Source: Desulfobacteraceae bacterium
GTDB lineage: Bacteria > Desulfobacterota > DSM-4660 > Desulfatiglandales > Desulfatiglandaceae
Length of the DNA stretch: 44,952 nt
Direction of reading: 5' to 3'
NCBI GenBank assembly: GCA_030666795.1
Contig: DAOUXC010000002.1
Location: forward strand, 1 to 44,952
Shown here in pieces: positions 1 to 29,879 of the stretch; the stretch's first letter is position 1, and each line of letters starts with the position of its first letter. Made by a program: the position numbers and the translations under genes. Under the pieces are notes generated by a model, which made no database searches, was not told the DNA's origin, and worked only from the letters and a program-made list of their open reading frames with translations.

Positions 1-386
1 ACCATTGGGTTATCGGCCTTAACTGTCAGAGCGTCCCATTATAATAACAAGGTCGAAGCTATTTTGAAGCAAGTTTCTTTCATAAATGAATCCGACGCGA
101 AGCGTCAGTTTCAAATGCTAACGTTGCAAAAGTCGAAGATGCGGCAGATCTAAGGCGTCAAGGGTGAAGCTGTAGTACTTTACCGCGAACTTTTGACAAC
201 GCAGGAGATGTGGCATCCTCGGCTTTCCCATCGGGTAAATAACATGGCTGTTTTTCGTTGTTTTCAGGATGTCACTTGGAGTGTATTCCAACAACCGAGC
301 CAAAAAGGTTGAAAGAGGCTATAATACCAGTCTTTAAACCCAATTTGCCATGTTATTTATGCAACTATAGGGTAAATTGACTATGC

Positions 387-848
387 CTAATCGTAACTTG
401 CACGGGTCACTTCATCACTCATGGTCGGCGCGACAATCGGCTTACAAGCGGAGCTCTCCCATGTCCCGAGAGCGGTATGCATATCAAGATACTTTTTCGG
501 TATGGGGTGGGTTCCTACAACGACATGCACTTCGTAGCGTTTTTCGAGAAAGGCTTTAAACGTATCGATATAGGGACAGGGGGGATAACCAACCACCAGG
601 CCGGTGGCCAAATGAATAACCTCCGCGCCATTTTTCACCATCTCTTCCCCCGCATATTCTATATTGCCACCGGGACAACCATCGCACGTTGTAAAACCAA
701 CCAACTCAGGTTCGGTGTCCGTGTAGATGCTGAAGGCCCCTTCCTTTTTCTTCATTGCCCGGAAACACTTCCCGCCCGCGCAGCGACGGTAGCGATCACA
801 GATAATTATTCCAATCTTTGTCTTTGAATTCATTTCAACTCCCTTCAA
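387..848 (-). CDS. CGGC domain-containing protein
   Basis: ORF with Cys motifs CAGGKCF and CDGCPGGN plus HLATGLVVGYPPCPY, typical of CGGC-domain proteins. Confidence 0.85.
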   Translation of the reverse strand: MKGVEMNSKTKIGIIICDRYRRCAGGKCFRAMKKKEGAFSIYTDTEPELVGFTTCDGCPGGNIEYAGEEMVKNGAEVIHLATGLVVGYPPCPYIDTFKAFLEKRYEVHVVVGTHPIPKKYLDMHTALGTWESSACKPIVAPTMSDEVTRASYD

Positions 849-1014
849 TTTTTATTTGATAAATTTTTAAAGCATTCGAACGGGTCATGGGGTTGACTGA
901 TAAAGGATCATAAAGAGAAGGGAAAAGAAACCTTTTTTGTGATTATGGAATGAATTGATATTTCAGCCTGAATTTGATATCTTCCGATGGCACATCGGTC
1001 GGAAAGGATTATTT

Positions 1015-1629
1015 ATGCTTGAAAAAGACATTTCAGCCCGTGCAGGCAAGTCCTCTTTAGTCGCGATGTTTCTGATGACCGCGCTCCTGGTTTTTCCACT
1101 GGAAATGTCGTTCACGGCATCCCTGCGTGATTTTGTGAAAGAAAAAGAAAATATAGAGACAAATGAGTTAACGGAAAAAGCTTCCTTACATCCTATTCTT
1201 GTCATGAATAAGGTCAACCGGTTCTGCAGACTGCTTCAACAAAAAGGCGCTGCCGCCTTCAAAATCTGCATGAATAAAGAAAGTGCTTTTTTCGATCATG
1301 AGACCTACATCTTTGCCCACACCCTGGTGGACGCTGAGGTCATGGCCTCTCCAATGGACCCTGAAATGGTGGGGAAAAACATTCTGTTCATGCAGGACAT
1401 CATCGGAAAGCTGTATATCGCGGAAATGAACAGGATGGTGAAGGAAAACAAGGCAGGATGGATTGAGTATTATTATCGCAAAACCAGCGAAGAGATGCCA
1501 ATTGTTAAAACCGCATATGCCCGCGAATGCCGTGTTGACGGAAGGACATATGTGATCGCCTGCGGGATAGAAAACATCACAAAGAACCAGGTGCTGAAGG
1601 TGCTTCAGGACCTGGTCCCTGAAAAATGA
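1015..1629 (+). CDS. Cache-like sensor domain protein (signal peptide/TM plus single Cache-like domain)
   Basis: Hydrophobic N-terminus then NPxxxGKN-like 'DPEMVGKNILFMQD' and 'GWIEYYYRKTSEE...KTAYARECRVDGRTYVIACGI'; ATG at 1015 preceded by GGAAAGGAT; ends in ATGA overlap with the next ORF. Confidence 0.7.
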   Translation: MLEKDISARAGKSSLVAMFLMTALLVFPLEMSFTASLRDFVKEKENIETNELTEKASLHPILVMNKVNRFCRLLQQKGAAAFKICMNKESAFFDHETYIFAHTLVDAEVMASPMDPEMVGKNILFMQDIIGKLYIAEMNRMVKENKAGWIEYYYRKTSEEMPIVKTAYARECRVDGRTYVIACGIENITKNQVLKVLQDLVPEK

Positions 1630-3449
1630 TCCATATGCTGAACAGAAAGCCTACTTTATTTACCGGTATAAAAAAAAGGTTGACAATATCCATGATCCTG
1701 GTGGTCTTTATATTGATCGCCATGCTCGTGGCTTGCGGATATTTTCTTTTTCATTTGGAGGAAAAATACGAAATACAGGAAGGGGCCGGTCGGATCGTTA
1801 AACTCATCCAGCAGGCTCAGATAGCGGAAAAAGCGTATCGTAAATATTATGAGGACGGCTACCGGCACACGGTCAAAAAGAAAACACAGGAAATGCTGAA
1901 CGATCTGGACACGAACGGCCATATTTTCGGTCCGGCCAAGCATCCACTCATCGACCTGATCAAGGCCTACCAGAAATCTTTCGAAGAAATCGTTGCCCTT
2001 TATAAACTCCAGGAAGAGATGAACGACCGCCTGAACGCGAACGTGGAGAGCGTCCAGTCCATGTGTCTGGGTCTGAGTCTCGACACCCAGACCAGGGAAC
2101 TGAATCCTCACCCCGGATCAAGACCCCAAACCGTTTACATGGCTGCTGGCCAACGTTTGGCCTTACATCATATCCGCAACATGTGCTTACGAATCCTGGT
2201 CCACCACAAACGTTCCATCATTTCCAAGGATGAGAAACATTTAAACCTCCTTTTCAATTATGTGAAGACATACAGTCCGGGTATATTCGGGGCCCTGGAG
2301 CTGAGCAGTGAGACTCTGGGCGACACGGCCCTGCAAAAGGAGACTGCCGATCTCATCACAACCATCAAAGATTGCGTCACCCTGATTCGGGAATCAGCGG
2401 ACCTGGTGCACGCGGAAAATCTCAAGGAAGAGCAATTTGATCTCATCGCCCAAAAATTGACCGCCAAAGCGGACAGCATCCATTTGGAGGCCTATTCCGC
2501 CAAAAAAAGGCTGAAGACCTCAGCCGCCATACTGCTGGTCCTGCTCATTTCAGCGGGGATCCTTATTATTGTTCTGGTAACGATGGCGACGAATCGTTCC
2601 ATTACCAGGCCTCTCAATCATATGGTCAGAACCGCGAAAGCCATAAAGGAGGGAGACCTGGACCAGACTGTCGAGATAAAAGGAGACAACGAATTCGCCA
2701 AACTCGGCAGAGCCATCAACGCCACCACTTCTCACCTGGCCCAATCCCTGCGGCTCCTGGAAAATGAGGTGGCTGAAAGAAAATCCGCGGAGCGTGAGAT
2801 CAAGGCCCTGTCCCGCAAGATGATCACAAACCAGGAAAATGAGAGGGCGTCCATCGCGAGAGAATTGCATGACGAGCTTGGGCAAATGCTCACACTGTTG
2901 AAAATCCAGGTGTCCCGCGTGTTTTCAAAGGGAGGAAACCATTACGCGAATCAGGACAAATCGTCAGAGGAGATCATCGATTCAATTGACAGGTTAATGT
3001 ATGAAGTCAAAGAACTGGCATTACGGCTCCGGCCGAAAATCCTGGACAGCATGGAACTGAATGAAGCCCTTCACTGGATGTGCAAAGAATTCACAAAAAG
3101 AACAGGTATCGAGTGTACCTTATCCGGGGATGTGATCAGCCTGGATGACGAGGTGATTGAATCGACTCTCTTCAGGGTTGCCCAGGAGTGTCTGACCAAT
3201 GTGACCCGCCATTCAAATGCCACCCATGTCAATATCAAATTATACAAGCAGGGTGAGTTGATCGAGTTTGAAATATCAGACAACGGGAGAGGATGCGACG
3301 AAGTTCTCTTAAATTCAGGGAAGGCGCTCGGCATTGCGGGCATGAAGGAGCGGGCAAGATTGATCGGCGGGGATTTGATAATACAAACAGCACCCGGTCA
3401 GGGCTTTTTTCTGAAACTGATTGTTCGGTTATCGGCCTTTACGGAGTAG
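1626..3449 (+). CDS. NarX/DegS-type sensor histidine kinase (2 TM, HAMP, HisKA_3, HATPase_c)
   Basis: HAMP 'RSITRPLNHMVRTAKAIKEGDLDQTV'; 'ERASIARELHDELGQMLTLLKIQ' HisKA_3 H-box; C-terminal 'DNGRGCDEV..GIAGMKERARLIGG'. Confidence 0.95.
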   Translation: MIHMLNRKPTLFTGIKKRLTISMILVVFILIAMLVACGYFLFHLEEKYEIQEGAGRIVKLIQQAQIAEKAYRKYYEDGYRHTVKKKTQEMLNDLDTNGHIFGPAKHPLIDLIKAYQKSFEEIVALYKLQEEMNDRLNANVESVQSMCLGLSLDTQTRELNPHPGSRPQTVYMAAGQRLALHHIRNMCLRILVHHKRSIISKDEKHLNLLFNYVKTYSPGIFGALELSSETLGDTALQKETADLITTIKDCVTLIRESADLVHAENLKEEQFDLIAQKLTAKADSIHLEAYSAKKRLKTSAAILLVLLISAGILIIVLVTMATNRSITRPLNHMVRTAKAIKEGDLDQTVEIKGDNEFAKLGRAINATTSHLAQSLRLLENEVAERKSAEREIKALSRKMITNQENERASIARELHDELGQMLTLLKIQVSRVFSKGGNHYANQDKSSEEIIDSIDRLMYEVKELALRLRPKILDSMELNEALHWMCKEFTKRTGIECTLSGDVISLDDEVIESTLFRVAQECLTNVTRHSNATHVNIKLYKQGELIEFEISDNGRGCDEVLLNSGKALGIAGMKERARLIGGDLIIQTAPGQGFFLKLIVRLSAFTE

Positions 3450-3454
3450 AAAAC

Positions 3455-4102
3455 ATGTCCGAGAAAATAAGAGTTGTCCTGGTGGATGACCATGAAATGG
3501 TTCGAGCGGGCTTCCGCGGTCTCATAAATGACCACACTGACATGGAGGTCGTCGGAGAGGCCTCCAACGGTCAGGAGGCCATAGAAACGGTCAAACGAAT
3601 AAAACCGGATGTCGCTGTCATAGACATCTCCATGCCGGGTATGGACGGGTTGGAACTGATCCCCAGGCTCAAAGACGTGAATCCGACAATAAAGGTTGTC
3701 CTGCTGAGCATGCATGAACTGGAGTACTTTGTTGTTCAGGCCCTGGAGCAGGGAGCAAATGGTTATGTCACCAAGAGTTCCGCGCCGGAAGACCTGGTCA
3801 AATCCATTCGAAAAGTTCATGGCGGCGGACGTTTTCTGAGTGAAAAGGCTTACGAACTCCTTGCCTACAGGATTACCGTCGGTTCCGATCATTCGGATCC
3901 GGTGTCCAAGCTTTCACAGCGTGAAAAACAGATACTGGTAGGACTCGCTCAGGGCATGACCGTTAACGAGATCGCGCAAAATTACTGCATCAGCCCGAAA
4001 ACGGTCAACACGTACCGGGCAAGGATTATGGAAAAACTCGACCTCAAAAACAATGTCGAGATGGCCCTTTTCGCTTTACGAAACAGTTTGATTGAACTCT
4101 GA
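3455..4102 (+). CDS. LuxR/NarL-family response regulator
   Basis: 'IRVVLVDDHEMVRAGF', 'DVAVIDISMPGMDGLELI', HTH 'LSQREKQILVGLAQGMTVNEIAQNYCISPKTVNTYRARIMEKL'; ATG at 3455 is a better start than the ORF-track start. Confidence 0.95.
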   Translation: MSEKIRVVLVDDHEMVRAGFRGLINDHTDMEVVGEASNGQEAIETVKRIKPDVAVIDISMPGMDGLELIPRLKDVNPTIKVVLLSMHELEYFVVQALEQGANGYVTKSSAPEDLVKSIRKVHGGGRFLSEKAYELLAYRITVGSDHSDPVSKLSQREKQILVGLAQGMTVNEIAQNYCISPKTVNTYRARIMEKLDLKNNVEMALFALRNSLIEL

Positions 4103-4107
4103 CCGGC

Positions 4108-4125
4108 CCGGCGCGGGTGCGCCGG
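4108..4125 (+). repeat. GC-rich hairpin directly after the response-regulator stop codon
   Basis: CCGGCGC-GGGT-GCGCCGG, 7-bp perfect stem; no U-tract. Confidence 0.45.
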
Positions 4126-4239
4126 TATCGAAATCCCGCATTCATATTCCGTCCCTGTTTTCTTTTGTTTCAGTCCTTTCCTGTCAGGCCCCGAACAAGA
4201 GGGATCTCTCGGAAAACCCTGTGGTCTCAATATATTTCA

Positions 4240-4294
4240 AAACGCGTGGATCCTTATGTAGTGAATTATCCTACACTGCACGCGTTTATTTTTT
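4240..4294 (+). terminator. Candidate intrinsic terminator between regulator genes and transport genes
   Basis: AAACGCGTG (4240-4248) pairs with CACGCGTTT (4279-4287), nested TGTAG/CTACA (4257-4261/4271-4275), followed by ATTTTTT. Confidence 0.7.
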
Positions 4295-4449
4295 ACATCA
4301 GGGTTCCGAAAAAATGACACTCTTTCCGAAATAGTCCGATTCCCACCCATTTGTTTCTATGTTTAAGTAGAAGCATTATCAGCAGTCTATCCAGTCCGAT
4401 TCCATTTTGGGCTTTATTTCATATTTTTTTTACAGAGAAGGAGGACACA

Positions 4450-4956
4450 ATGATTAACAAAAACCTGAGCGCCGTCTTCTGTCTGGTTGCTTTCCTGTTG
4501 ATATCAGCTACGGCATACGGCGCCACGGCCGTTCGGCTGGCCACGGAACCGCGGGAAGAAAAACAGATAACGGTTTACGCGTATAAAATCAAACACCTTG
4601 CTACCCTGAACAGGGAAAAACCGGGGCCTTTGGTTGAAATTGTCAAAACCATTATCACGGACCCTGAACGGGAGGTCGAGGTCAAAGTCAAACCGGTAAA
4701 CGTTCTTATGAAATATGGACTCATTCAGTCGGTCGGGGTCGCGGCTATTGCCGGGAAAGGCGACTTTTCCGCGGAAGACCTGAAAGATCTTATCGAAGTC
4801 CCTATTTACGAAAAAGGGGGCAAAAAATATTCCTGCTTTTTTAATAAAAGGAATCCCAGGGGTGAGCCTTTGAGCAAAATTGCCATCAAAAACCTTAAAA
4901 AAATAAAAACGGACGGGACCTATAATCAGATTCTGAAAAAATACGCGAAAGAATAA
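4450..4956 (+). CDS. Short secreted solute-binding-like protein (168 aa, SBP_bac_3-like ends)
   Basis: Signal peptide 'MINKNLSAVFCLVAFLLISATAYGA'; 'KPVNVLMKYGLIQSVGVAAIAG' and C-terminal 'KIKTDGTYNQILKKY' resemble SBP family 3; ATG at 4450 after GAAGGAGG. Confidence 0.55.
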   Translation: MINKNLSAVFCLVAFLLISATAYGATAVRLATEPREEKQITVYAYKIKHLATLNREKPGPLVEIVKTIITDPEREVEVKVKPVNVLMKYGLIQSVGVAAIAGKGDFSAEDLKDLIEVPIYEKGGKKYSCFFNKRNPRGEPLSKIAIKNLKKIKTDGTYNQILKKYAKE

Positions 4957-4968
4957 AAGAGACAAACT

Positions 4969-6249
4969 ATGGTTTTATCCACCGTCCTGACGCTGGTCGT
5001 CATTCTCTCCATTGTCATCATATTTTCAACGGCCATTAAAATACCGGCCCCTTATACCATAACCCTCTCGGCCATAGCCGGCTCTCTGGTCGCGGGAACG
5101 GGATTGCCTGTTTCAAGATTTGTCGAGGGTTCGTTCGGGTTTTTCTATATTGTCATGGTATTTGCGGCGGGCCTTATACTTGTCAAAGTCATGTCGGAGA
5201 TCGGCTTCAACGAAGCCGTTAAAAAGGCGATACTCCTCAGATTCGGACGGTACCGCGTCCTCATGCTCCTGGGCATCATGTTTCTGCTCATGCTGCCCGG
5301 AATGCTTACGGGAATCGGTTCTGTGGCCGTGGTCAGCACCGGCGCCGTGGCAGCCCCCCTGTTGCTGGGAATGGGGATTCCCAGACCCTGGGCCGCGGTA
5401 TTCATCACCATGGGCGCCATTCTGGGTATGATCGCCCCGCCGGTGAATATCCCGTTGATGTATATCGGGGCCATTATTGCCATCCCCTATGAGGGATTCA
5501 CTCTGATCACACTGCTGCTGACGCTCCCTCTCGCCGCGGGATTCGCTTTATGGATCGGACTCCGGTACGGGGATAAAACCGCTCTGGAGGATTTGATCAG
5601 AAAGGCCTCCGAATCACCATCAGACAGCGAGGGACCGTTGGTTTATCTACCCATCATCGTGGTCACGGTTTTATTATTGTGCGAACGGACGGTTCCTCAT
5701 TTCCCGCATCTCAGCCTGCCCCTGATTCTCATGATCGGCGCGTTGACCGGGTTGCTGAAATTGAAAATCCGCGATTTTTTCAGGGCCTCCACAGAAGCCC
5801 TGGCCGGGCAGTCCTTTATCATCCTGATGATCATCGTCACCGTAGGTATAAAGAGTGAAATCCTGTCGTTGACCGGTGTCCGGGGTCTGTTGACGACTTT
5901 CTTCTTCGCGGGGCTGCCGGACTGGCTTTTCTATCCCAGCCTGATCAGCCTGCCGCTTCTGGGAAGCTTCGGGACCGTGTTCGGTTCCACCTTTATTCTG
6001 GGTTTCCCTTATGTCCTGGCCCTGCTTCCTAAAAGTACCATCATTACATCGGCCGCGGTCTCCCTGATTGCCGGTGTGGCGGATATTGTTCCTCCAACCG
6101 CTCTATCAGGAAATCTGGCGGCCCAGGCCGTAAATGAAGCGTCATACGCGCGGATTTTCCTGCGTTGCATGGTTCCGGCGTTGATCATGATCGTCTGGTC
6201 GATTGCCGTGATCCTGATGTCGCCGTTACTGAAACAACTGATTCCCTGA
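4969..6249 (+). CDS. TRAP transporter large permease (DctM-like)
   Basis: Polytopic; 'PPVNIPLMYIGAIIAIPYEGF', 'MLPGMLTGIGSVAVVSTGAVAAPLLLGMGIPRPWAAVF' DctM-like repeats. Confidence 0.75.
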   Translation: MVLSTVLTLVVILSIVIIFSTAIKIPAPYTITLSAIAGSLVAGTGLPVSRFVEGSFGFFYIVMVFAAGLILVKVMSEIGFNEAVKKAILLRFGRYRVLMLLGIMFLLMLPGMLTGIGSVAVVSTGAVAAPLLLGMGIPRPWAAVFITMGAILGMIAPPVNIPLMYIGAIIAIPYEGFTLITLLLTLPLAAGFALWIGLRYGDKTALEDLIRKASESPSDSEGPLVYLPIIVVTVLLLCERTVPHFPHLSLPLILMIGALTGLLKLKIRDFFRASTEALAGQSFIILMIIVTVGIKSEILSLTGVRGLLTTFFFAGLPDWLFYPSLISLPLLGSFGTVFGSTFILGFPYVLALLPKSTIITSAAVSLIAGVADIVPPTALSGNLAAQAVNEASYARIFLRCMVPALIMIVWSIAVILMSPLLKQLIP

Positions 6250-6264
6250 GTATGGAGGTCCCCA

Positions 6265-6426
6265 ATGGACGAAGCCGCGATCATCGGCCTGTTGTATAAG
6301 CTCATCATAGTCTACTTTATCGTGATTTTTATAACCAATCTCTTCCGGAAAAAGAAGATATCGGATCAGGTGATGTACGCGGCCATATTGGTTCCCTTTG
6401 TACTCAGACTCTTCTCAATCAAATAA
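6265..6426 (+). CDS. 53-aa small membrane protein (2 predicted TM), missing from the ORF track
   Basis: ATG at 6265 preceded by TATGGAGGTC; MDEAAIIGLLYKLIIVYFIVIFITNLFRKKKISDQVMYAAILVPFVLRLFSIK*; tightly spaced between permease and hydrolase genes. Confidence 0.65.
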   Translation: MDEAAIIGLLYKLIIVYFIVIFITNLFRKKKISDQVMYAAILVPFVLRLFSIK

Positions 6427-6434
6427 AAAGCGAA

Positions 6435-7607
6435 ATGAAAAACATGATGAAGGCACTCAAATCAAATCACCGCATCGCTTCTTTTTTCCTCCTGGTTATG
6501 GCAGGCATCCTTATCATACACTCCGGAACCACGTTCCTTGAAATGCACAAACCGGATACCCTGTTTCCGGGTCCCGGCGTCACCGGAAAAGGAAAACTGA
6601 GCGACTATGTCCCCCGCCTGAAAGACACGCCCATGGATACGGATCTCTATTTTCTCAAGGGTAAGGAACCGGGTGGAAAATTCCTGATATTCGGAGGGAC
6701 CCACAATGATGAGATTGCCGCTCACGTTTCCGCCATCACCTTGCTGGAAAACGCCGTTGTCAAAAAGGGGGAACTGATTATCATCCCGAGAGTCAACCGG
6801 AGCGGCTCGACCTATACCCTTGAAATGGAGGCCTATCCTCAGTTTCTGGAGATCAAGACATCCAAAGGCGTCCGGAAGATCAGGACCGGCGCTCGATACG
6901 CCAATTGGGCCCATCAGTTCCCGGATCCGGAAGTCTACGCCCATCCCCTTACGGGTCAGAAATACCCGGGCACCGAATCCAGAAACCTGAACCGGGTCTA
7001 TCCCGGCAGGGCGAATGGATTTATCATGGAGAAAGTGGCCGCCGCGTTGATTGAATTCATCAACCGGGAAAAAATCAATCTGGTGCTCGACATGCATGAA
7101 GCGTACGCGGAGCACTACGTGGTTGACTGCCTGGTGGGTCATGACCGGGCCATGGAGCTGGTCGCCATGACCCTGATGGCGCTTCAAATGGAGGGAATCA
7201 GCATCAAGATGTTTCAATCCCCGAAAAAAGTATACGGTTTTTCCCACCGCGCCATTGGAGAGCATACCGACGCTATGGTCGTCCTGGCGGAAACGACCAA
7301 TATCGCGTTCGGGAAATTTCGAGGTAAAATCACACAGGATCTCTTATGGGACGGAAAGGATCCGTTTTACGATCTCCTGTACCGCAAGGGAAAATTGTTT
7401 GTTGAATACGATTCCAAGAAAGGCATCTCACTCGATGAAAGGGTGGCCCGGCATCTCACCACAGTTATGGAACTTTCCAGAAGCCTTTCCGAATACGATG
7501 AGTCCAAAACAATTGAAATAGACAATATTCCGGAATATTCGGAATTGCTCGATAAAGGGATCATAGGGCTTTTGGAACCCAAAGAGAGAAACGACAGATT
7601 TCAATAG
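6435..7607 (+). CDS. Succinylglutamate desuccinylase/aspartoacylase-like (M14 superfamily) membrane-anchored hydrolase
   Basis: N-terminal TM; zinc motif region 'FGGTHNDEIAAHVSA', 'LIIIPRVNRSGS', 'NLNRVYPGR', 'INLVLDMHEAYAEHYV'. Confidence 0.8.
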   Translation: MKNMMKALKSNHRIASFFLLVMAGILIIHSGTTFLEMHKPDTLFPGPGVTGKGKLSDYVPRLKDTPMDTDLYFLKGKEPGGKFLIFGGTHNDEIAAHVSAITLLENAVVKKGELIIIPRVNRSGSTYTLEMEAYPQFLEIKTSKGVRKIRTGARYANWAHQFPDPEVYAHPLTGQKYPGTESRNLNRVYPGRANGFIMEKVAAALIEFINREKINLVLDMHEAYAEHYVVDCLVGHDRAMELVAMTLMALQMEGISIKMFQSPKKVYGFSHRAIGEHTDAMVVLAETTNIAFGKFRGKITQDLLWDGKDPFYDLLYRKGKLFVEYDSKKGISLDERVARHLTTVMELSRSLSEYDESKTIEIDNIPEYSELLDKGIIGLLEPKERNDRFQ

Positions 7608-7642
7608 AAAAAAACAAACCCAATGAAATATGGAGGCAAAAA

Positions 7643-8236
7643 GTGACTGTTATGAAAAGATGCGTGTGTCTTCTCCTGATGACATTTTGTGTTTCAATGA
7701 TTTTTGTTTGCGACCTTTCCGCGAAGCAAATCAAAGAAACACCCAGATTTCCCACCCCCTTTCTGCTGACCTCCGCGGGACAGAGCCCGGACGCTTTGAT
7801 GGTCAAAATCATCTCCAAGCGAAAAAAGCTCGATATGAAATACAACCTGCTCGCCCAAACGTCCGACCTGGCGGATATCAAGAGCCTGTTGCTGGTCATG
7901 GGCGTCAGCATGAAAGGGCTTGGAACCGCGGGTATCAAGCTGGAAAAGGAAGTGGCACGGGTTCACGGCTTAATCAAAGAGGCTAAGAAGAAAAAGATTA
8001 AAGTCATCGGAATGTTCGCGGGAGGCGCCGGGGGCCGGGGGGGCAGAGACAAGCTGACCGATTCGGTGATCTCTCAGGTCGCCCCGAGGGTCGACCATCT
8101 TGTGGTGATCAAGAGCGGCGATAAAGACGGTTTCATCAAGGGATTGGCTGAAAAAAACAATATCCCGATCACGTACATGAAAAACATTCTGGAACTCAAG
8201 AAAATCGTCCCCGCGCTTTTTTCGGGGAAAAAATAG
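7643..8236 (+). CDS. Exported DUF6305-like protein
   Basis: Signal peptide; 'PFLLTSAGQSPDALMVKII...YNLLAQ...DIKSLLLVMGVSMKGLGTAGI' resembles DUF6305; start may be GTG 7643 or ATG 7652. Confidence 0.55.
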   Translation: MTVMKRCVCLLLMTFCVSMIFVCDLSAKQIKETPRFPTPFLLTSAGQSPDALMVKIISKRKKLDMKYNLLAQTSDLADIKSLLLVMGVSMKGLGTAGIKLEKEVARVHGLIKEAKKKKIKVIGMFAGGAGGRGGRDKLTDSVISQVAPRVDHLVVIKSGDKDGFIKGLAEKNNIPITYMKNILELKKIVPALFSGKK

Positions 8237-8238
8237 AA

Positions 8239-8284
8239 GGGGTTCGTCATTTTCGCGCGCGGTCGCTTGAATGACGGGAATCCC
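8239..8284 (+). repeat. Intergenic inverted repeat
   Basis: CGTCATT (8245-8251) / AATGACG (8270-8276) with flanking GGGGTT / GAATCCC partial extension. Confidence 0.45.
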
Positions 8285-8314
8285 TGATCAGGCACTATTT
8301 GAAGAGGACATCAC

Positions 8315-9865
8315 ATGAGATCATCAATGCGGCTTTTGGTATGCGTTCTCCTGTCAACATGCTTATTTACCACATTCAGTCTTCCCGCCCTGGCCGGGGA
8401 GGCCGAAGACCGTTACCGGCCCATCGGCGCGGTCCCGGGATATAACCCGAGAGTCCAGTACTATGAAGTGCCCGAAGGTTTTCCGAAGTATGACGACACC
8501 GTGATATTTATCGGAAACATCCGGGGCGACTGGCGCGAAATGGGTTACCAGTACGGGGAGCGTGCCGGGAGTCTGATCCTGAATGTCTACAATTATCTTA
8601 TTGGACATTTCAAGGTGAGATTCGGTCTTCCGCACCTGCGCGAGGATCTTGAGCGTTATTCGAAGGTGATCCGGGACTATTCTCCCCAGATGATTGAATT
8701 CATGAAGGGGATCGGTGAGGGCGCGTCGGAAGTCCTGGGGGAATCAACCCATTCCAAAGATCTGACCGATTTTGAGAAGATCCTTTTGATCAACGTTTAC
8801 CTGGACCTGGATTTCGGGCACCCCAAACCGGAATTTCATAAAGGCAAGACAACACCCATACCCGGACAGCGAACCGGACAATCCGTCCATAAAAAGTTTG
8901 CGGCGCAGCACTGTACCGGTTTTGCCGCCAGTGGAAACGCCAGAGGTCCCCTCCTGTCTCCGACCAAAAACCGGGAGACTCTTATCGCCAATAACTATGA
9001 TCTCCCCAAATTTGTGCCCGGCGGATGGAGTGTCGCTTACGTGGCGACTCCGAAGGATCCGAAAGCCCATTGCTTCTGGTCCATGCAACCGGCGGGCGTG
9101 GTTGGGGGTTACAATCTCATCGTCAATGACCGGGGTGTGGGGATCGGCAATTTTTTCGGCGGCAGGAGCACGGACGAAATTGACTTCGGCCTGGCGATCG
9201 CGCCGCTGATGGTCCACGCGGCGGCCTATTGCGGCAGCGCCAGGGAAACAATCGACATGATGACCCTGGGAAGCCCGGATTATCGAAAAAAATCAAACAG
9301 AAAAACCATACTCCAGACCGGGCCCTGGGCCTACCTGATCGCGGACCCCGATGAGGTGGCCGTCCTTGAGGTCAGTTCCCACAGGCATGCGGTAAGAACC
9401 CCCGGAGACATGAACGAGGCGGGCAACTACGTTGTCTACGCCAACTGGTACGGATCAAAAAAATACTATGACGAGAACAATCAACTCGTGAGTGAGCCCA
9501 TGGGTATCCAACCGCCGGAATTTCCCGAAAGATACCATACATTTGACTGGTATATCAAACACCACTTCGGTGAAATCGACGCTGACACGGCCAAGGAGAT
9601 GCAGGGAATTCGCTATTTTTATGAGGAAAAAACCGGCAAAAAGATTGAATTCCTCGAAGACAGCAACATCCCCGTTTACATCGGCAAGCATACGCCCTGC
9701 GCGTACTGGGGGGCGGCGATCGACGTGGATATGGGGGGAACCGTTCATGCGGCTCAGGCGATTCTGAGAAAAGACGGGAAGACCAAAATCTACTGGGTAC
9801 AGGGAAGACCCTGCGAATGGGTCGGCCCCTGGCAAAGCGTGGACTTCTCAGGATATCGGAAGTAA
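8315..9865 (+). CDS. C45-family autoproteolytic acyltransferase/hydrolase (Ntn fold), exported
   Basis: Signal peptide; 'GNIRGDWREMGYQYGE', candidate nucleophile 'AAQHCTGFAASG' (Cys200, codon 8912-8914), 'NNYDLPKF', 'GGYNLIVNDRGVGIGNFFGG'. Confidence 0.8.
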   Translation: MRSSMRLLVCVLLSTCLFTTFSLPALAGEAEDRYRPIGAVPGYNPRVQYYEVPEGFPKYDDTVIFIGNIRGDWREMGYQYGERAGSLILNVYNYLIGHFKVRFGLPHLREDLERYSKVIRDYSPQMIEFMKGIGEGASEVLGESTHSKDLTDFEKILLINVYLDLDFGHPKPEFHKGKTTPIPGQRTGQSVHKKFAAQHCTGFAASGNARGPLLSPTKNRETLIANNYDLPKFVPGGWSVAYVATPKDPKAHCFWSMQPAGVVGGYNLIVNDRGVGIGNFFGGRSTDEIDFGLAIAPLMVHAAAYCGSARETIDMMTLGSPDYRKKSNRKTILQTGPWAYLIADPDEVAVLEVSSHRHAVRTPGDMNEAGNYVVYANWYGSKKYYDENNQLVSEPMGIQPPEFPERYHTFDWYIKHHFGEIDADTAKEMQGIRYFYEEKTGKKIEFLEDSNIPVYIGKHTPCAYWGAAIDVDMGGTVHAAQAILRKDGKTKIYWVQGRPCEWVGPWQSVDFSGYRK

Positions 9866-10000
9866 GATTTCGGATCCTGTAGAAATCAGTTATATGTCCA
9901 CGGGAAGGAGGTTACGCTGAAAATAACGGGTTGTCGTATTGATATGGACGGATAAAACAGTTTTTTTATCATTTATTAAGGAAAAGGGAGGAGAGGAAAG

Positions 10001-11332
10001 ATGAGAATATTTAAGGTGGCATTGATTGCTGTGATGGTATGCCTGATGACTGTTTCCCTGAGTTTTGGAAAAGAGCCGTTAACCGTTAAACCGGAAAGTG
10101 TGGGCATGTCATCGGATCAGCTTAAAAATATCGATGAACAGGTGAAAAAGTATATTGACAGCGAAAACATGGCCGGCGCGGTGGTACTGGTTGCCCGCCA
10201 TGGAAAAATCGCCTATCTGAAGGCCTTCGGAAACGCGGAAAAGGAAAAAAACAAGCCGATGACGACGGACGCCATTTTCCTGGTTGCCTCCATGACAAAG
10301 GCATTGACCGCGACGTCCATCCTGCAGTTGGTGGATCAGGGAAAAATCCTTTTGACGGATCCGATTTCGGCGTATGTCCCCGAATTCGCCAAACCGCAGG
10401 TCGCCGTGCAGGACAAGAACGGTAAGATCAAACTGGTCAAGGCGAAACGGGAGATCACTTTCCATGATCTGTTGACCATGACTTCGGGTATCGGATGTAC
10501 CCGCTGTTTCGGTACTCCGGCAGGGGACTTTGTCACGAACCTGATGATTCAGGCAAAAATCAAGGACGGGATGGCGGTCTATGACGGAACCATCGGGGAC
10601 GAGACCAAGAACATCGCGGGTATCCCGTTGATGTTTCAACCGGGCGAAGGTTTCAATTACTCCGATCCCGGAGTCATCGCGCTCGGTCATCTGGTTGAAG
10701 TTATTTCAGGAATGAGTTTGGACAAATACATGGAGAAGAACATCTTCAAGCCCCTGGGGATGAGCGACACGTGCTTTTTTGAGCCAAAGTCCAAGCTTTC
10801 AAGGGTTGCCGACTATTATTATGGTCATGATGGAAAAAATGGAAAAAAAGGTGATAAATTCATTAAAGATTACCTGGGTCCCTATGCCGAGTATGAAAGG
10901 GAAATGTCCTTCACCGACAAGCAATCCTTTTTTGCCCCATGCGCGGGTATACACTCTACTGCCGCGGATTGGATGAGCTTTGTCCAGATGCTCTTAAACG
11001 GCGGCGTGTATAACGGAAAACGCCTCTTGAGCAAACAGGCGGTTAAACTGATGACAACCAACCAGATCGGGGAAAAAGTCTTTCCTTTCTGGAATAACCG
11101 CTGGGGATACATGGTCGATATCCAGGAAGACAACGTAGCGGATATGCCGAACGATTCCTATATGGGCGGGGAAGGCGCTTTTGGCTGGGTTGGTTTCTAT
11201 GGCACACGATGGTTCGCCAACCCGAATGAAGATACGGTGATGGTCTTTATGACTCACGTCTACTGGTTCTTTGACGTATCTCCGCTCCAGAATAAAATCG
11301 CGCACATCATCAACCGCGCGGTCATCGATTAA
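10001..11332 (+). CDS. Beta-lactamase-family serine hydrolase, exported
   Basis: Signal peptide; SxxK 'VASMTKALTATSILQ'; 'FNYSDPGVIALGHLVEVISG'; class C/DD-peptidase-like organisation. Confidence 0.9.
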   Translation: MRIFKVALIAVMVCLMTVSLSFGKEPLTVKPESVGMSSDQLKNIDEQVKKYIDSENMAGAVVLVARHGKIAYLKAFGNAEKEKNKPMTTDAIFLVASMTKALTATSILQLVDQGKILLTDPISAYVPEFAKPQVAVQDKNGKIKLVKAKREITFHDLLTMTSGIGCTRCFGTPAGDFVTNLMIQAKIKDGMAVYDGTIGDETKNIAGIPLMFQPGEGFNYSDPGVIALGHLVEVISGMSLDKYMEKNIFKPLGMSDTCFFEPKSKLSRVADYYYGHDGKNGKKGDKFIKDYLGPYAEYEREMSFTDKQSFFAPCAGIHSTAADWMSFVQMLLNGGVYNGKRLLSKQAVKLMTTNQIGEKVFPFWNNRWGYMVDIQEDNVADMPNDSYMGGEGAFGWVGFYGTRWFANPNEDTVMVFMTHVYWFFDVSPLQNKIAHIINRAVID

Positions 11333-11351
11333 AAGAACCATCTTGGATAGA

Positions 11352-11424
11352 GGTGTTTGAGTGCCGGCGTCCTGAAAACGACGGGTTACGGTTACCCGGC
11401 GCGGGACAAAGCCACTCAAACACC
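11352..11424. promoter_or_regulatory. Structured intergenic element upstream of pgsB (12-bp perfect inverted repeat)
   Basis: GGTGTTTGAGTG (11352-11363) / CACTCAAACACC (11413-11424), with nested CGGGT/ACCCG. Confidence 0.6.
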
Positions 11425-11437
11425 CGGCCCGAACAGT

Positions 11438-11458
11438 GCCTTTTTCATATAAAAAGGC
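11438..11458. promoter_or_regulatory. Second hairpin upstream of pgsB
   Basis: GCCTTTTT-CATAT-AAAAAGGC, 8-bp perfect stem. Confidence 0.55.
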
Positions 11459-11503
11459 TTTCGCAAGCAGAGGCTTGAGCTTAAATCAACAACCCCGGAA
11501 ACC

Positions 11504-12688
11504 ATGCCTTACCTTCTCATCCTGATCACCGTCACAGGCTACTTGATCCTGGAAAAAATACTCCACAGGAAGAGGCTGAATGCCATACCGATTCGTGTTC
11601 ACGTGAATGGGACAAGGGGAAAAACAAGCGTGACGCGCCTGATCGCGCGTATGCTCAGGGAGAACGGCGTTCGGACGGTTGCCAAAACCACGGGGGACGC
11701 GGCGCTCTTCATTGGCCCCGACGGTCGTGAACAAAGTTGGAAAAGACGGGGACCCGCGCGCATCCAGGAACAGGTCACATTCATCCGCAGGGCGGCTGCC
11801 CTCAAGGCTGAAGCAATTGTCGTCGAGTGTATGGCACTGGCGCCCCCGCTGCAGTTCACATCGGAGGCGGACATGATTCAGTCCACCATCGGAGTGATCA
11901 CCAATGTGCGGCCCGACCATTTTGAGGTCATGGGAAAAACCCTGGATGACATTGCCGCCTCGCTCAGTGCCGGCATTCCGAGAAACGGGATACTGGTCAC
12001 ATCTGAAAATCGATATCTTTCCTTTTTCAAGTCCCGTGCGGCCCGGTTAAATACCAGGGTCTGCCTGACGGATAAGTATGATGCGGATTTCGAGAAAGGA
12101 TTCACAGGAAATAAGGGCGCCCGAGAAAATGAGCTGACAGCCAGAAAGGTATGCCGCCTGGTTGAAGGAATGTATTCGAAAACAGCACAATTTTCACTCC
12201 ATGAAAAGGGTTGTGAAGACAATCCGGTATACGTAAAAAAAGAACGCAAATCCGGACACATCCATTTTATCGATGCCTTTTCCGCCAATGACATTGAATC
12301 CGCGAAACAGATCCTCGATCGGATATCTTTTGATGAAAAATATCCGCGGCCTCTGGTTGCCGTCCTCAACAATCGATCGGACAGGCCCCTAAGAATGCTT
12401 TCATTCGCCTCCTTTGTCGCCCGGGAGACCGCGTTCAAGCACATTGTGCTGGTGGGTGATCATCAACGGCTGGCCAGGAGGCATATTTACAGAAACATGG
12501 GCGGCCGCTCCGTTGATGCCGCCAAGGAACGCCCTGTCCACCTTTTTGGAAAGGGATCGCCCGGGAAAGTCCTTAAGACCCTTGAGCGGCAGGTAAACGC
12601 AAAGGAATGGACCCTGGTTGGGCTGGGCAATCGCAAAGGAACGGGCGCTGATCTGTCGCGCTATTTTCAATTGGAAGAAAACCCATGA
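11504..12688 (+). CDS. pgsB: Poly-gamma-glutamate synthase PgsB/CapB-like Mur-type ligase
   Basis: P-loop 'VHVNGTRGKTSVTRLIARMLRENG', 'AEAIVVECMALAPPLQFTSE', 'GVITNVRPDHFEVMGKTLDDIA'. Confidence 0.92.
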   Translation: MPYLLILITVTGYLILEKILHRKRLNAIPIRVHVNGTRGKTSVTRLIARMLRENGVRTVAKTTGDAALFIGPDGREQSWKRRGPARIQEQVTFIRRAAALKAEAIVVECMALAPPLQFTSEADMIQSTIGVITNVRPDHFEVMGKTLDDIAASLSAGIPRNGILVTSENRYLSFFKSRAARLNTRVCLTDKYDADFEKGFTGNKGARENELTARKVCRLVEGMYSKTAQFSLHEKGCEDNPVYVKKERKSGHIHFIDAFSANDIESAKQILDRISFDEKYPRPLVAVLNNRSDRPLRMLSFASFVARETAFKHIVLVGDHQRLARRHIYRNMGGRSVDAAKERPVHLFGKGSPGKVLKTLERQVNAKEWTLVGLGNRKGTGADLSRYFQLEENP

Positions 12689-13131
12689 TTCTCGCCGAGT
12701 CAATCGCCATAGGACTTGTCCTGGGCTTTGTGATCTATGAATGGATAGGGCTTTCCCCCGGGGGTCTGGTTGTGCCGGGGTACCTTGCCCTGTACTGGAA
12801 CCGCCCGGGAATGATCATCAGCACCCTGGCCATATCCTTTGCCGTCTATGGCCTTGTCCGTCTTCTCTCGAAGGTGACCATTTTGTACGGGAAAAGGCGG
12901 TTTCTGCTTATGATTCTCACGGGCTATGCTTTGCGATGGATTTACGAGGTCTACGTCATCCGCTTCAGCATGTTTTATACGGAAGTGGATGTCATCGGAT
13001 ACATTATACCGGGTCTCATTGCCAATGAGATGGATCGTCAGCGCGTGATCCCGACCCTGTCCCTGATGGTGACGGTTTCCATTATGGTTCGGTTGATCCT
13101 CATGGCAACGGGCCGAATATATTGGAACTGA
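12685..13131 (+). CDS. pgsC: Poly-gamma-glutamate biosynthesis protein PgsC/CapC-like
   Basis: Polytopic 'IGLVLGFVIYEWIGLSPGGLVVPGYLAL' signature; ATGA overlap with pgsB. Confidence 0.92.
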   Translation: MILAESIAIGLVLGFVIYEWIGLSPGGLVVPGYLALYWNRPGMIISTLAISFAVYGLVRLLSKVTILYGKRRFLLMILTGYALRWIYEVYVIRFSMFYTEVDVIGYIIPGLIANEMDRQRVIPTLSLMVTVSIMVRLILMATGRIYWN

Positions 13132-13161
13132 AACACTCAATCCAAACCCGGTGCACATGCA

Positions 13162-14247
13162 ATGGACTATAACCCCGACTCAAAAACACGCCAAAAGGGC
13201 CTGCTGGGCGCCGCTTTCCTTGCCGTCCTGTTGCTGGTGTTGAGTGAATATGTCGTAACGCCGGAAAAGGATCGGCACGAATACGGGAAGGCGGCGGCCG
13301 TCCTGATGCACCGGGCCCTCGATGCTGTTAAAAAAGAGAAACAGAGAATCGGGATCGCCATTGAGTCACGGGAGGATCCTAACGGAACCGGTATCATCGG
13401 AGAGGAATATTCGGACCTGACCAGCACATTGGGATCGCTTTCAGCGAAAAGGACTTCAACAAATCCCCTTTTTGCCGCGGTTATCGTGGACATGATAAAA
13501 GATTGCGGGCTCACAGAGGGAGACCGGGTGGCCATTACTTTTTCAGGATCTTTCCCGGCCCTGAATATTGCCGCGCTTTCAGCCGTTCACACACTGAAAC
13601 TGAACCCGATCATCACGAGTTCCATAGGCGCGTCATCCTATGGGGCGAACCATCCTGAACTGACGTGGCTGGACATGGAACGGGTCTTAAGAGAAAACAG
13701 TATCTTCCCTTACCGGTCAAGGGCCGCCTCACTGGGGGGTATCATCGACACCCAGGGGGGGCTGGACGGGACGGGAATGGAAACGGGATTGAAAGCGATT
13801 CAAAGGAACCACGTTCCATTTCTGGATGAAAAAGGAAAGGAAACACTGATCGCTGATATTCAAAAGCGACTGGAGTTATTTGAAGACCGGGACGCTGAAA
13901 AGAACATCGCGCTCTATATAAACGTCGGCGGGTCCCTTGCGGCTCTCGGAAATTGCCCCGAATCCTACTCTCTTCGAACGGGGCTGTTGAAAGACATCGC
14001 TTTTCGCGATCATCCGCAAAAGGGGATCATCTTTATCATGAGTGAACAGGGAATTCCGGTCATTCATCTCCTGAACATCAAAAAGATCGCGCGCCGTTAC
14101 GGACTTCCCATCGATCCTGTACCCCTCCCTGAACTCACCAGCACCGTAATGCCGGGAACGCGAAAACCTTCCCGTTTTTTCGCGGCCATCAGTTTCGTGG
14201 TCCTATGTGTGCTCCTTTTTTATTTGAACAGGAAAAGCCGTCCGTGA
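13162..14247 (+). CDS. pgsW: Poly-gamma-glutamate system protein PgsW-like
   Basis: N- and C-terminal TM; 'GIIGEEYSDLTSTLGSLSAKRTSTNPLFAAVIVDMIKDCGLTEGDRVAITFSGSFPALNIA', 'SSIGASSYGANHPELTWLDME'; immediately follows pgsC. Confidence 0.85.
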   Translation: MDYNPDSKTRQKGLLGAAFLAVLLLVLSEYVVTPEKDRHEYGKAAAVLMHRALDAVKKEKQRIGIAIESREDPNGTGIIGEEYSDLTSTLGSLSAKRTSTNPLFAAVIVDMIKDCGLTEGDRVAITFSGSFPALNIAALSAVHTLKLNPIITSSIGASSYGANHPELTWLDMERVLRENSIFPYRSRAASLGGIIDTQGGLDGTGMETGLKAIQRNHVPFLDEKGKETLIADIQKRLELFEDRDAEKNIALYINVGGSLAALGNCPESYSLRTGLLKDIAFRDHPQKGIIFIMSEQGIPVIHLLNIKKIARRYGLPIDPVPLPELTSTVMPGTRKPSRFFAAISFVVLCVLLFYLNRKSRP

Positions 14248-14341
14248 CAGAGGTCTCCCTCCTTTTCTTCAAGGCGTCCGGAGTCCACCGCGCTTTCTCT
14301 CACTCTTTGCCCGCTTAGAAGACCAGCCGCCGGTCAGGCGC

Positions 14342-17835: not shown

Positions 17836-19980
17836 CTAGTCATATAGCAGTAGCAATGGTATCCATGGCATAGATCTTCTATTTATTACCATATCAATCG
17901 CATCTAGCAATGATTTTTTCGCAAAGGAATCCTGGTCGATACTCCATATCATCACTCCAGCCGCCTTATGAATTGCAAAAAGTGTTTTATTTTTAACGGT
18001 ATTTATTCCGTTGAAGTAATAGTCGCCCACTTTGTTAGTGTCTGGATCAAGAGCTGGGTTTTCCTCGATGATCTTGGCATAGGTTTTAAAGCTTGGAGGC
18101 GTTGTTTGATTGTTTCTGCCATAGAATGGGACACCTATAATAAGCTGTTCTTTTGGAAAGCATTTAGTTTTACTCCAATAGTTAAAGGCCTCAACCGCAT
18201 ACGTGCAGGGAGAATGATTGTCAGCAGTTTTGTCGTAGGCCATGATATTGATGAAGTCTACATAGCTGGAAACGCCAGAATTCACCCACTGACCATAGTA
18301 TTTGTCTGGGGGTACTGCGGCAGTAAGCAATTTTACTTTATTGTCATTGAATTTGGTAGGATCTTGCGTGGTGATATGTAGCTCTTTCATCAATTTTTCA
18401 AAGTTATTAGACTGATCACTGGAATCTGGATATTCCCAATCAATATCCACACCGTCCAGTCCATATGTATTTATAAAATCGACTAGATTATTGGCAAAAG
18501 CCACTCGGTAGGCGGTTTCTCCTGAAAGATCCACAAAACGAGTGTCGTTTCCTCCTCCATCACCGATAAACCATCCCCCTACGGCAATAAGAACCTTGAC
18601 ACCCTTATTTTTAGCTTTAACTGCAAGATTGGTTAGCTTTTCTTCCTCTGTAGAATTCAAAGCGTTTATGAAATTAGGGGCGCTGACATAATCAAAAATG
18701 TTATCTGAATCACCTGATTTCAATTGGCATGTCTGGTTATACAACTCGATGATGAGATCACTATCGCCTAAAGCCGAACCATCAATTGTGGTTCCTTTTT
18801 TAATTCCATTCAGAAATGCCTCATAGTCCTTGCCGGTTTTAACGATTTTGATAGTATTATATGTCCCGAGATAAGGCGTGCTGCTCTCAATGTGCTGGTA
18901 ATCGTAAGCTCCATCTTCAAATATACCAAACTCAACATATTCTTCATCATCAGTATTAAACCCAAATCTGACTATGTTGCTGCTGTCTTTCTTTACACAG
19001 AGATAGACTCCCCCGTATCCATCCGGTTTGACTCTGGTTTCAAAAATTAAATTTTCTCCTGAAAACTTTTTTTTGGAATCAAGGACTGCACAGTCACAGT
19101 CATTTGCGGGCTTATGTACGTTCACATGAAGTGTGGTTCCGGATTCAGTGATTGTTCCATCATTGTGATAGATAGTCCATTTGTCAGCATAAGTCTCATC
19201 ATCGAAGTCATCCCTCAAAGTATTATCTGTAGTCCATTCAAGTCCTCCGTTTGATGTAGGATACAGAAAGGAATAATTGATATGGGTCAGTTTGTCATAC
19301 TTAATCTTGGATAGATCCTCCCACCTTGGAAAATAACCCACAACTTTAGGTGAAATAGGGCAGCTATAGCCTGGCCCGGCCTGCAATATCGTATGTGTCT
19401 CACACTCGATAAATATCTTTCCTTCACGCGGGGCCTCGCTGGAGTTTAATGTGACCGTATACGCAACAGGCTCATTACCAGTGTGGTAGCCGTCACTTCC
19501 TGATGTTATAGTAATCCAGTCAGCATTATCTGTAGCATACCAGACATAGTTAGGTTCGGAAACTTCCACGTCAAATTTGCCACTGCCTCCGGATTCCTTA
19601 AAGAATGCAAAGCAATCAATAGGGTAGACACAGCTTGGCCAGGACTGCAATATCGTATGTGTCTCACTCCCAATAAATATCTTTCCTTCACGTTGGATCC
19701 CGCTGGGATTAGATGCGACTATGTACTCAACAGGCTCATTACCGTAGTGGTAAACACCATTTCCTGATGTTATAGTAATCCAGTCAGCATTATCTGTAGC
19801 ATACCAAACACAATTAGGTTCGGAAACTTCCACATCAAATTTGCCAGTGCTTTCAGATTTTTCAAAACATGCAAAACGATCTATAATAGTAACAGTACAG
19901 CCAGCAAAGACAGGAGAGCTTAATGTTATCCCAAGTAAACCTATAATGAAAAAAGTTAGAATCCATCTAAATCTTTTCAT
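17836..19980 (-). CDS. Exported GH18-family (chitinase-like) protein with two BACON-like repeats and a nested beta-sandwich domain
   Basis: GH18 motif 'DGVDIDWEYPDS', 'KVVGYFPRW', 'KVLIAVGGW'; two ~88-aa repeats 'GKFDVEVSEPNxVWYATDNADWITITSG'; start at MKRFRW (19980). Confidence 0.88.
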   Translation of the reverse strand: MKRFRWILTFFIIGLLGITLSSPVFAGCTVTIIDRFACFEKSESTGKFDVEVSEPNCVWYATDNADWITITSGNGVYHYGNEPVEYIVASNPSGIQREGKIFIGSETHTILQSWPSCVYPIDCFAFFKESGGSGKFDVEVSEPNYVWYATDNADWITITSGSDGYHTGNEPVAYTVTLNSSEAPREGKIFIECETHTILQAGPGYSCPISPKVVGYFPRWEDLSKIKYDKLTHINYSFLYPTSNGGLEWTTDNTLRDDFDDETYADKWTIYHNDGTITESGTTLHVNVHKPANDCDCAVLDSKKKFSGENLIFETRVKPDGYGGVYLCVKKDSSNIVRFGFNTDDEEYVEFGIFEDGAYDYQHIESSTPYLGTYNTIKIVKTGKDYEAFLNGIKKGTTIDGSALGDSDLIIELYNQTCQLKSGDSDNIFDYVSAPNFINALNSTEEEKLTNLAVKAKNKGVKVLIAVGGWFIGDGGGNDTRFVDLSGETAYRVAFANNLVDFINTYGLDGVDIDWEYPDSSDQSNNFEKLMKELHITTQDPTKFNDNKVKLLTAAVPPDKYYGQWVNSGVSSYVDFINIMAYDKTADNHSPCTYAVEAFNYWSKTKCFPKEQLIIGVPFYGRNNQTTPPSFKTYAKIIEENPALDPDTNKVGDYYFNGINTVKNKTLFAIHKAAGVMIWSIDQDSFAKKSLLDAIDMVINRRSMPWIPLLLLYD
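19372..19899 (-). repeat. 264-bp tandem duplication encoding two BACON-like domains
   Basis: TGATGTTATAGTAATCCAGTCAGCATTATCTGTAGCATACCA at 19501 and again at 19765 (period 264). Confidence 0.85.
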
Positions 19981-20084
19981 AAAGCAACTCCTTTGATTAG
20001 CAATCATTTTTGCGCTAAGTAAAAAGCCATAACCTATTAAACAAATTATTTTCAAAATGGTTTAAGACTAATGGCTGTCACCCC

Positions 20085-23094: not shown

Positions 23095-23270
23095 AGAATC
23101 ACCTCCCTAATTAAAGGTGTTTTGACATTTAGCTTTCAACAGTTCTAAACAAGTACCGTAGCAATCTCATCCTTTGCTTCTCCTTCTTTAAGCCGTAACT
23201 CTTCCTCCTTTCAAATTACTCATACAAAAGGTATTAGTATCTTTTTTATTATGTCTTCGATTCAAACATT

Positions 23271-27061: not shown

Positions 27062-27412
27062 TTTTGATGCCCTCCGGATCTAAAGAAAGGTTTCTTTGAG
27101 AGACAATAAGGATGGGCCTTTTCTTTTTGAGGATGGAGTATAATTGAGTGATGGATTGGTGTCAAATTGGTTCAGATTTCCATGTATTTGCATGCTTTTT
27201 AAGCATCATCAGGTTTTATGGATACTGTATAAAAGGAACCTCGACAAAAGAATAACATAAGGTTTTGCTTACTTATTGGTATCATTAAATTTTATGAACC
27301 TTAAAGTTCAACCAAAACCAATATCATGTCCCAGAGATGACATGACGGGGACTTCCGCAAATCAGTACCAGAAGCTTAAGACATATCATGAGGAGACATC
27401 CTATATTGTCCT

Positions 27413-29785: not shown

Positions 29786-29875
29786 ATGTTTTCATGTCTC
29801 CAGAAGGTAGAGGTAATCGAAAGCCTCCGAGGGATTTTTATGTCCTTTTGGAGGCTTTTGTTCTTGGGGAGGTGA
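29786..29875 (+). CDS. 29-aa leader ORF upstream of cyclase gene
   Basis: AAGGAGGAAATC-ATG; MFSCLQKVEVIESLRGIFMSFWRLLFLGR*; TGA lies inside the GGGGAGGTGA Shine-Dalgarno of the 29880 gene; encloses 9-bp inverted repeat. Confidence 0.5.
   Translation: MFSCLQKVEVIESLRGIFMSFWRLLFLGR
29820..29858 (+). promoter_or_regulatory. Hairpin inside the leader of the 29880 cyclase gene
   Basis: AAAGCCTCC (29820-29828) / GGAGGCTTT (29850-29858), perfect. Confidence 0.6.
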
Positions 29876-29879
29876 ACGC

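Follow-up and report, generated by a model that had tools for sequence, protein, structure and literature searches.

Gene content of the block

The DNA described here (the window, 44,952 nt) is the whole of contig 118 of the 3.36-Mb metagenome-assembled genome of a Desulfobacteraceae bacterium. Between positions 1015 and 14247 it carries 13 co-directional genes on the + strand, which end in the order pgsB-pgsC-pgsW. Judged by sequence comparison, this block is on balance probably a divergent form of an envelope system that is conserved and combines amide cleavage and uptake with a gamma-glutamyl ligase. The core parts of this system are a DctM-like permease, a small membrane protein, an M14-family amidohydrolase and a DUF6305 protein; in the window these are followed by a secreted N-terminal nucleophile (Ntn) hydrolase and, further downstream, by the ligase genes:

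4969..6249, + strand: DctM-like permease, core part (PF06808 22.5 bits, cut-off 23.8)
6265..6426, + strand: 53-aa membrane protein, core part (GGAGG upstream; homologues 3' of the permease)
6435..7607, + strand: membrane-tethered M14 AstE/AspA-like metallo-amidohydrolase, core part (PF24827 34.8 bits, cut-off 25)
7643..8236, + strand, ATG 7652 possible: exported, binding-protein-like DUF6305 protein, core part (PF19823 157.7 bits)
8315..9865, + strand: exported C45-like Ntn hydrolase, proenzyme-like (NF040521 70.5 bits, cut-off 85)
11504..12688, + strand: pgsB, Mur-ligase-like amide ligase (TIGR04012 308 bits, cut-off 222.7)
12685..13131, + strand: pgsC, membrane partner of PgsB (TIGR04011 125.8 bits, cut-off 96.45)
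13162..14247, + strand: pgsW (TIGR04332 323 bits, cut-off 100)

The ligase genes are contiguous in B-C-W order (11504-14247), and all three products score above their curated cut-offs. The translation of pgsB shows the ATP motif GTRGKTS, and the window PgsC is the only PF14102 match in its genome. PgsW is predicted to have two membrane helices that flank an extracytoplasmic alpha/beta domain (AlphaFold2 mean pLDDT 91, pTM 0.90). A fold search with PgsW in the PDB gave no match at E<=0.001, and the idea that PgsW and DUF6305 have related folds was dropped at an hhalign probability of only 17%. PF09587 (PgsA/CapA) was not among the families detected in scans of the block proteins, no genome search aimed at PGA_cap having been made.

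Identification of the permease as DctM-like is supported by its relatives, 11 of 12 of which match DctM (E<=0.01, best 2.3e-13) and 9 of 12 CitMHS. The family also matches models of the DcuC exchanger; the best PDB profile match for the permease is a DctMQ chain, at a non-significant E of 0.08. Module anatomy was counted at the 72 permease genes that have room downstream, and in 69 of these loci a small membrane protein is encoded directly 3' of the permease, with an alignment that runs through the terminal pattern AALVIIPLVLRALMIK. The 53-aa product in the window has no Pfam or NCBIfam match and does not display the four helices of DctQ; it is a candidate minimal permease partner, analogous to DctQ. 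The exported partner is DUF6305 rather than a DctP or TAXI substrate-binding protein, neither of which was found here, and had not been recognized as a named family in the initial annotation. It is predicted as a single alpha/beta domain (AlphaFold2 mean pLDDT 89), with K91 and R106 as invariant basic residues in the alignment. Most of the clostridial DUF6305 rows that were read carry a lipobox, and those of Fusobacteriota, Synergistota and the window carry a plain signal peptide, a distribution that follows the pattern of extracytoplasmic binding proteins. Assignment of DUF6305 as an SGNH esterase was rejected, as the top Foldseek hits were weak (TM about 0.3) and a catalytic His is not conserved in the alignment. 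Some DUF6305 genes of Bacillota lie next to a response regulator gene in loci that have no permease (L229, L233, L240-L245, L249, L259, L260, L262-L264, L266-L268), where a sensing role is possible.

The matches of the permease family to CitMHS and DcuC exchanger models raise the alternative that the permease works outward or supplies precursors, exporting or exchanging glutamate or another dicarboxylate for a polymer that the hydrolases then remodel. This arrangement is improbable in view of the binding-protein signatures of DUF6305, namely the clostridial lipobox and the response-regulator context without a permease, and of the extra module copies, which bring their own hydrolases.

The M14 enzyme belongs with AstE/AspA: the zinc ligands HxxE...H, the catalytic Glu and the substrate-carboxylate Asn-Arg are all kept, and H90, E93, H221, E286 and N186-R187 are invariant across 12 relatives. 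It carries an N-terminal membrane anchor and is present in 72 of 72 permease loci. A secreted Ntn-type hydrolase is encoded no more than 8 kb from the permease in 70 of the 72, in most cases a gamma-glutamyltransferase (GGT, PF01019) and otherwise a C69 enzyme (PF03577), with C45 found in the window only. All three enzyme types (GGT, C69, C45) belong to the Ntn hydrolases. In the C45-like protein the candidate nucleophile is Cys200, within HCTGFAASG. No GGT match (PF01019) was obtained anywhere in the window's genome, unlike at most other module loci, so the C45 enzyme plausibly fills the GGT position. Signal-peptide-like N termini are present on DUF6305, the C45-like enzyme and a serine hydrolase encoded after it. 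A family ('F10') beside GGT in Synergistota was set aside, as it looks like an out-of-frame translation over the GGT region; its longest member has no Pfam or NCBIfam match.

Recurrence of the core and its linkage to pgsBCW

The initial annotation would have treated the block as a chance neighborhood had it occurred in this genome only. That condition does not hold: five or more phyla have the core, which is present in Fusobacteriota, Bacillota, Synergistota, Acidobacteriota and the window's Desulfobacterota genome. A tblastn search of plasmids with PgsW led to a Cetobacterium somerae plasmid that carries the core together with pgsBCW; there the genes are annotated in the order ggt, two chromate-transporter genes, histidine kinase, response regulator, ggt, DUF6305, TRAP-like permease, 47-aa protein, M14, pgsB, pgsC, pgsW. 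Identities between the window and Cetobacterium are 36% for DUF6305, 37% for the permease and 42% for M14. A scan seeded with PgsW only, in one genome per species, returned 62 loci; DUF6305 lies in 16 of them, nearly all with the full core, and these 16 come from Fusobacteriota, Bacillota, Synergistota, Acidobacteriota and one record labeled Acholeplasmataceae.

Linkage extends to the level of whole genomes. When 39 genomes of the PgsW scan were searched whole, DUF6305 was found in 18, within the PgsW locus in 16. Among 98 Fusobacteriota genomes, all 16 with PgsW have DUF6305 (both 16, DUF6305 only 1, PgsW only 0, neither 81), and in the lone genome with DUF6305 and no PgsW match the contig breaks off inside pgsC. 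The 101 Synergistota genomes divide into 42 with both DUF6305 and pgsC, 2 with DUF6305 only, 2 with pgsC only and 55 with neither (Fisher p 1.7e-23, on counts that ignore shared ancestry), and the two genes lie <10 kb apart in 25 of the 42, against about 0.7 expected. Where pgsBCW was missing from the first module locus fetched, pgsC was found in 25 of 26 genomes (one weak contig-edge fragment), and fetching the pgsC regions placed a core module next to pgsBCW in 12 of them. None of five genomes having the DUF6305-response-regulator context only contains pgsC. These comparisons show that the core, which travels with a secreted Ntn hydrolase, depends at the genome level on one PgsBCW complex, which may serve several cores. 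The single pathway of permease, exported hydrolases and PgsBCW envisaged in the initial annotation thus stands as far as the core and pgsBCW recur together genome-wide; its C45 enzyme, serine hydrolase and two-component system were seen in the window only.

Copy number also bears on the principal alternative, an ordinary poly-gamma-glutamate (PGA) capsule or matrix with turnover, in which PgsBC would synthesize the polymer, GGT would anchor or trim it as CapD does, M14 would degrade it and the permease would recover glutamate. PgsB and PgsC score above curated synthase cut-offs, the cap operon of Bacillus anthracis includes the GGT-family CapD, and CapB/CapC content has led to PGA systems being called abundant in Synergistetes and Fusobacteria (PMC5542703); Fusobacterium nucleatum is also reported to produce PGA (Candela 2009, cited in PMC3815933). 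Against this, a genome has one pgsC match and up to 9 DUF6305 matches, with GGT, C69 or C45 as the hydrolase alongside a single pgsBCW, which exceeds what the recycling of a single polymer needs, and Francisella has CapBCA without detectable poly-D-glutamate (PMC3081320, PMC2629122). We regard a capsule as a rather unlikely explanation of the block.

A single change divides module from stand-alone rows in the PgsB tree (27 in shuffles), with the window on the module side. The PgsW tree gathers 43 of 45 stand-alone rows together, leaves the window just outside that group and needs three changes of the label; on the permease tree, adjacency to pgsBCW switches 8 to 12 times. Taken together, the trees indicate a ligase lineage dedicated to the module, with gene order repeatedly reshuffled. 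An independent joining of a stand-alone pgsBCW to the core in the window is unsupported, since its PgsB falls on the module side and its PgsW just outside the stand-alone clade; an approximately unbiased test did not reject a grouping of the window with stand-alone rows (p 0.165). The 8-12 changes of adjacency would also suit a nutrient island of amino-acid-fermenting anaerobes, with pgsBCW placed next to the uptake core only because each is useful and mobile, as would the separability of the core from pgsBCW on the chromosome and the status of the window's DUF6305 as the sole one over cut-off in 390 genomes of its phylum. Such an island is very unlikely, as both parts share a genome in 25 of 26 non-adjacent cases and a dedicated PgsB and PgsW lineage accompanies the core.

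Several points tell against the proposed cleavage-and-uptake system. The remaining PgsW-seeded loci, spread over many phyla, have pgsBCW without the core, and the ligase must have another job there. Two Synergistota genomes contain DUF6305 without pgsC, and shared ancestry is left out of the co-occurrence counts as a whole. Over half of the module rows in the trees were fetched through DUF6305, and the window branches are long. DUF6305 has no close fold match in the PDB (Foldseek), so that the term 'binding protein' rests on its location, lipobox and K91/R106.

At stand-alone pgsBCW loci (Bacteroidota, Zixibacteria, Chlorobiota and others), an exported ~300-aa protein without a family match follows in 20 of 42 cases (e.g., L060:11050-14202), a candidate outer-membrane beta-barrel follows in 16 of 42, and C25-family peptidases lie nearby in 15 of 42; an outer-membrane export route for the ligase product is a possible role of these neighbors. 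Synergistota modules of the C69 type end with second, shorter PgsW-like proteins that lack the C-terminal membrane helix (L290, L292, L294, L295, L228). These soluble proteins, closing some C69 modules, tie PgsW directly to the modules. Occurring without a second pgsBC, they would also agree with a role of PgsBCW in maturing hydrolases outside the cytoplasm or holding them there, for example through gamma-glutamylation of the enzymes or of their anchor, with no free polymer, and so would the secreted C25 peptidases near stand-alone loci. We regard this role as unlikely: neither a modification site nor a tail on the hydrolases was identified, and the candidate outer-membrane barrel at stand-alone loci suggests an exported product.

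Window-specific genes and surrounding sequence

The remaining genes of the block, upstream of the permease and between the C45-like enzyme and pgsB, are as follows:

1015..1629, + strand: membrane-anchored Cache sensor protein, window-specific (Pfam dCache_2 38 bits, sCache_2 36 bits; ATGA overlap with the kinase)
1626..3449, + strand: sensor histidine kinase, HAMP-HisKA_3-HATPase, NarL-type (Pfam)
3455..4102, + strand: LuxR/NarL-type response regulator (Pfam Response_reg and GerE)
4450..4956, + strand: exported small protein, weakly family-3 solute-binding-like, window-specific (SBP_bac_3 17 bits, cut-off 26.4; signal-peptide-like N terminus)
10001..11332, + strand: exported beta-lactamase-fold serine hydrolase, window-specific (PF00144 208 bits)

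Profile searches against Pfam and NCBIfam recovered on the + strand every gene named in the initial annotation. It counted about a dozen genes; the full number is 13 with the 53-aa membrane reading frame at 6265-6426, which it had overlooked; the sensor gene has a better start at ATG 1015 than at the TTG 955 given there. The common orientation and the ATGA overlaps (1626-1629 and 12685-12688) were confirmed. The description of short gaps throughout fails at a 347-bp gap (4103-4449) that parts the sensor genes from the remaining block genes, and because of this gap the block cannot be taken as one transcript. A promoter and terminator scan was uninformative, its counts being close to those in shuffled sequences.

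Some of these genes had been put forward as parts of a shared system. Histidine kinase and response regulator genes are indeed a repeated feature, present at about 41 of the 73 module loci, and are of another family than the window's; the window kinase (1626-3449) lies outside the recurring cluster, and a dedicated two-component system of the window's kind was not found at other module loci. Likewise, the C45 enzyme, the serine hydrolase and the solute-binding-like protein were not found at other module loci, which have GGT or C69 instead.

The tetranucleotide composition of the contig lies at a distance of 0.006 from the other contigs of its genome. A binning error is therefore unlikely, and contamination was rejected on this agreement. 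The block (window 1-14300) has a GC content of 0.50 versus 0.465 in the rest of the contig and, taken alone, is farther from the genome's tetranucleotide profile than the rest, a weak hint of horizontal origin. Beyond the block, three nucleotide-cyclase-domain proteins with TPR repeats are encoded in a cluster (21205-23106, - strand; 23696-27079, - strand; 29817-31781, + strand), one of which also has zinc ribbons and AAA_16, and a phage-integrase-like gene (28634-29467) adjoins them. A family 18 glycosyl hydrolase with BACON domains (17836-20055, - strand) lies in a GC-poor stretch (0.38-0.42 versus 0.476 for the contig).

Proposed role and comparison with known systems

In the cleavage-and-uptake system favored here, bonds of the gamma-glutamyl, peptide or N-acyl type would be cleaved outside the membrane by the Ntn and M14 enzymes. 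The amino acid or conjugate set free, which bears a carboxylate, would be captured by DUF6305 and passed to the TRAP-like permease, which would take up the products in an ion-driven manner, and the two-component system would detect supply. PgsBCW, working at the membrane, would consume ATP to build a gamma-glutamyl conjugate or chain, to act as donor, acceptor or reserve for the same hydrolases. We infer both the ligase product and the direction of uptake, and the sharing of the PgsBCW product with the hydrolases, likewise inferred, is the weakest step. A more far-reaching version, advanced tentatively, would place the PgsBCW of this lineage in a gamma-glutamyl cycle of the envelope, as its ATP-driven half and not as a capsule synthase: its chains would let secreted Ntn enzymes capture or exchange amino acids, a new TRAP-like transporter made up of DUF6305, the DctM-like permease and the small subunit would import them, and one ligase would serve several substrate-specific modules.

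The results suggest that PGA 'capsule' genes of Fusobacteria, Synergistetes and many Clostridia belong to a system for hydrolysis and uptake, in place of a capsule or in addition to one, and they give DUF6305, PgsW and the unannotated small membrane protein a testable role. In the literature searched, with most subscription journals outside its coverage, neither a description of the combination of DUF6305, permease, M14, Ntn hydrolase and PgsBCW nor the name DUF6305 was found.

The system shares its PgsB and PgsC families with Bacillus PgsBCA/CapBCA(D,E), and a GGT-family analogue of CapD is the usual neighbor at module loci. It differs in that PgsW sits where Bacillus has PgsA/CapA, in that its constant partners are the permease, DUF6305 and M14, and in that the window's genome has no GGT. 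The likeness to Francisella CapBCA is by annotation only, capB-capC being followed there by a 'poly-gamma-glutamate system protein', the family name of PgsW (PMC5362203). The function of that system is open in the literature, poly-D-glutamate not having been detected (PMC3081320); capBCA mutants are attenuated, and the polymer was sought and not found (PMC3081320, PMC2629122, PMC4688374), and the present module offers a new angle on the importance of CapBCA despite the lack of poly-D-glutamate. As in the TRAP transporters (DctPQM), a large DctM-like permease is encoded together with a small membrane protein and with an alpha/beta protein located outside the cytoplasm; unlike in those transporters, the permease of the window falls just under the Pfam cut-off, the small subunit has about 50 aa, and DUF6305 is neither DctP nor TAXI. 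The pairing of a gamma-glutamyl enzyme with a dedicated importer is shared with systems for glutathione and gamma-glutamyl peptide nutrition, which comprise an ABC importer and ggt in Staphylococcus aureus (PMC10355420) and GGT and DptA in Francisella (PMC7340319); a TRAP-like permease, M14 and PgsBCW, not described as parts of those systems, set the present module apart.

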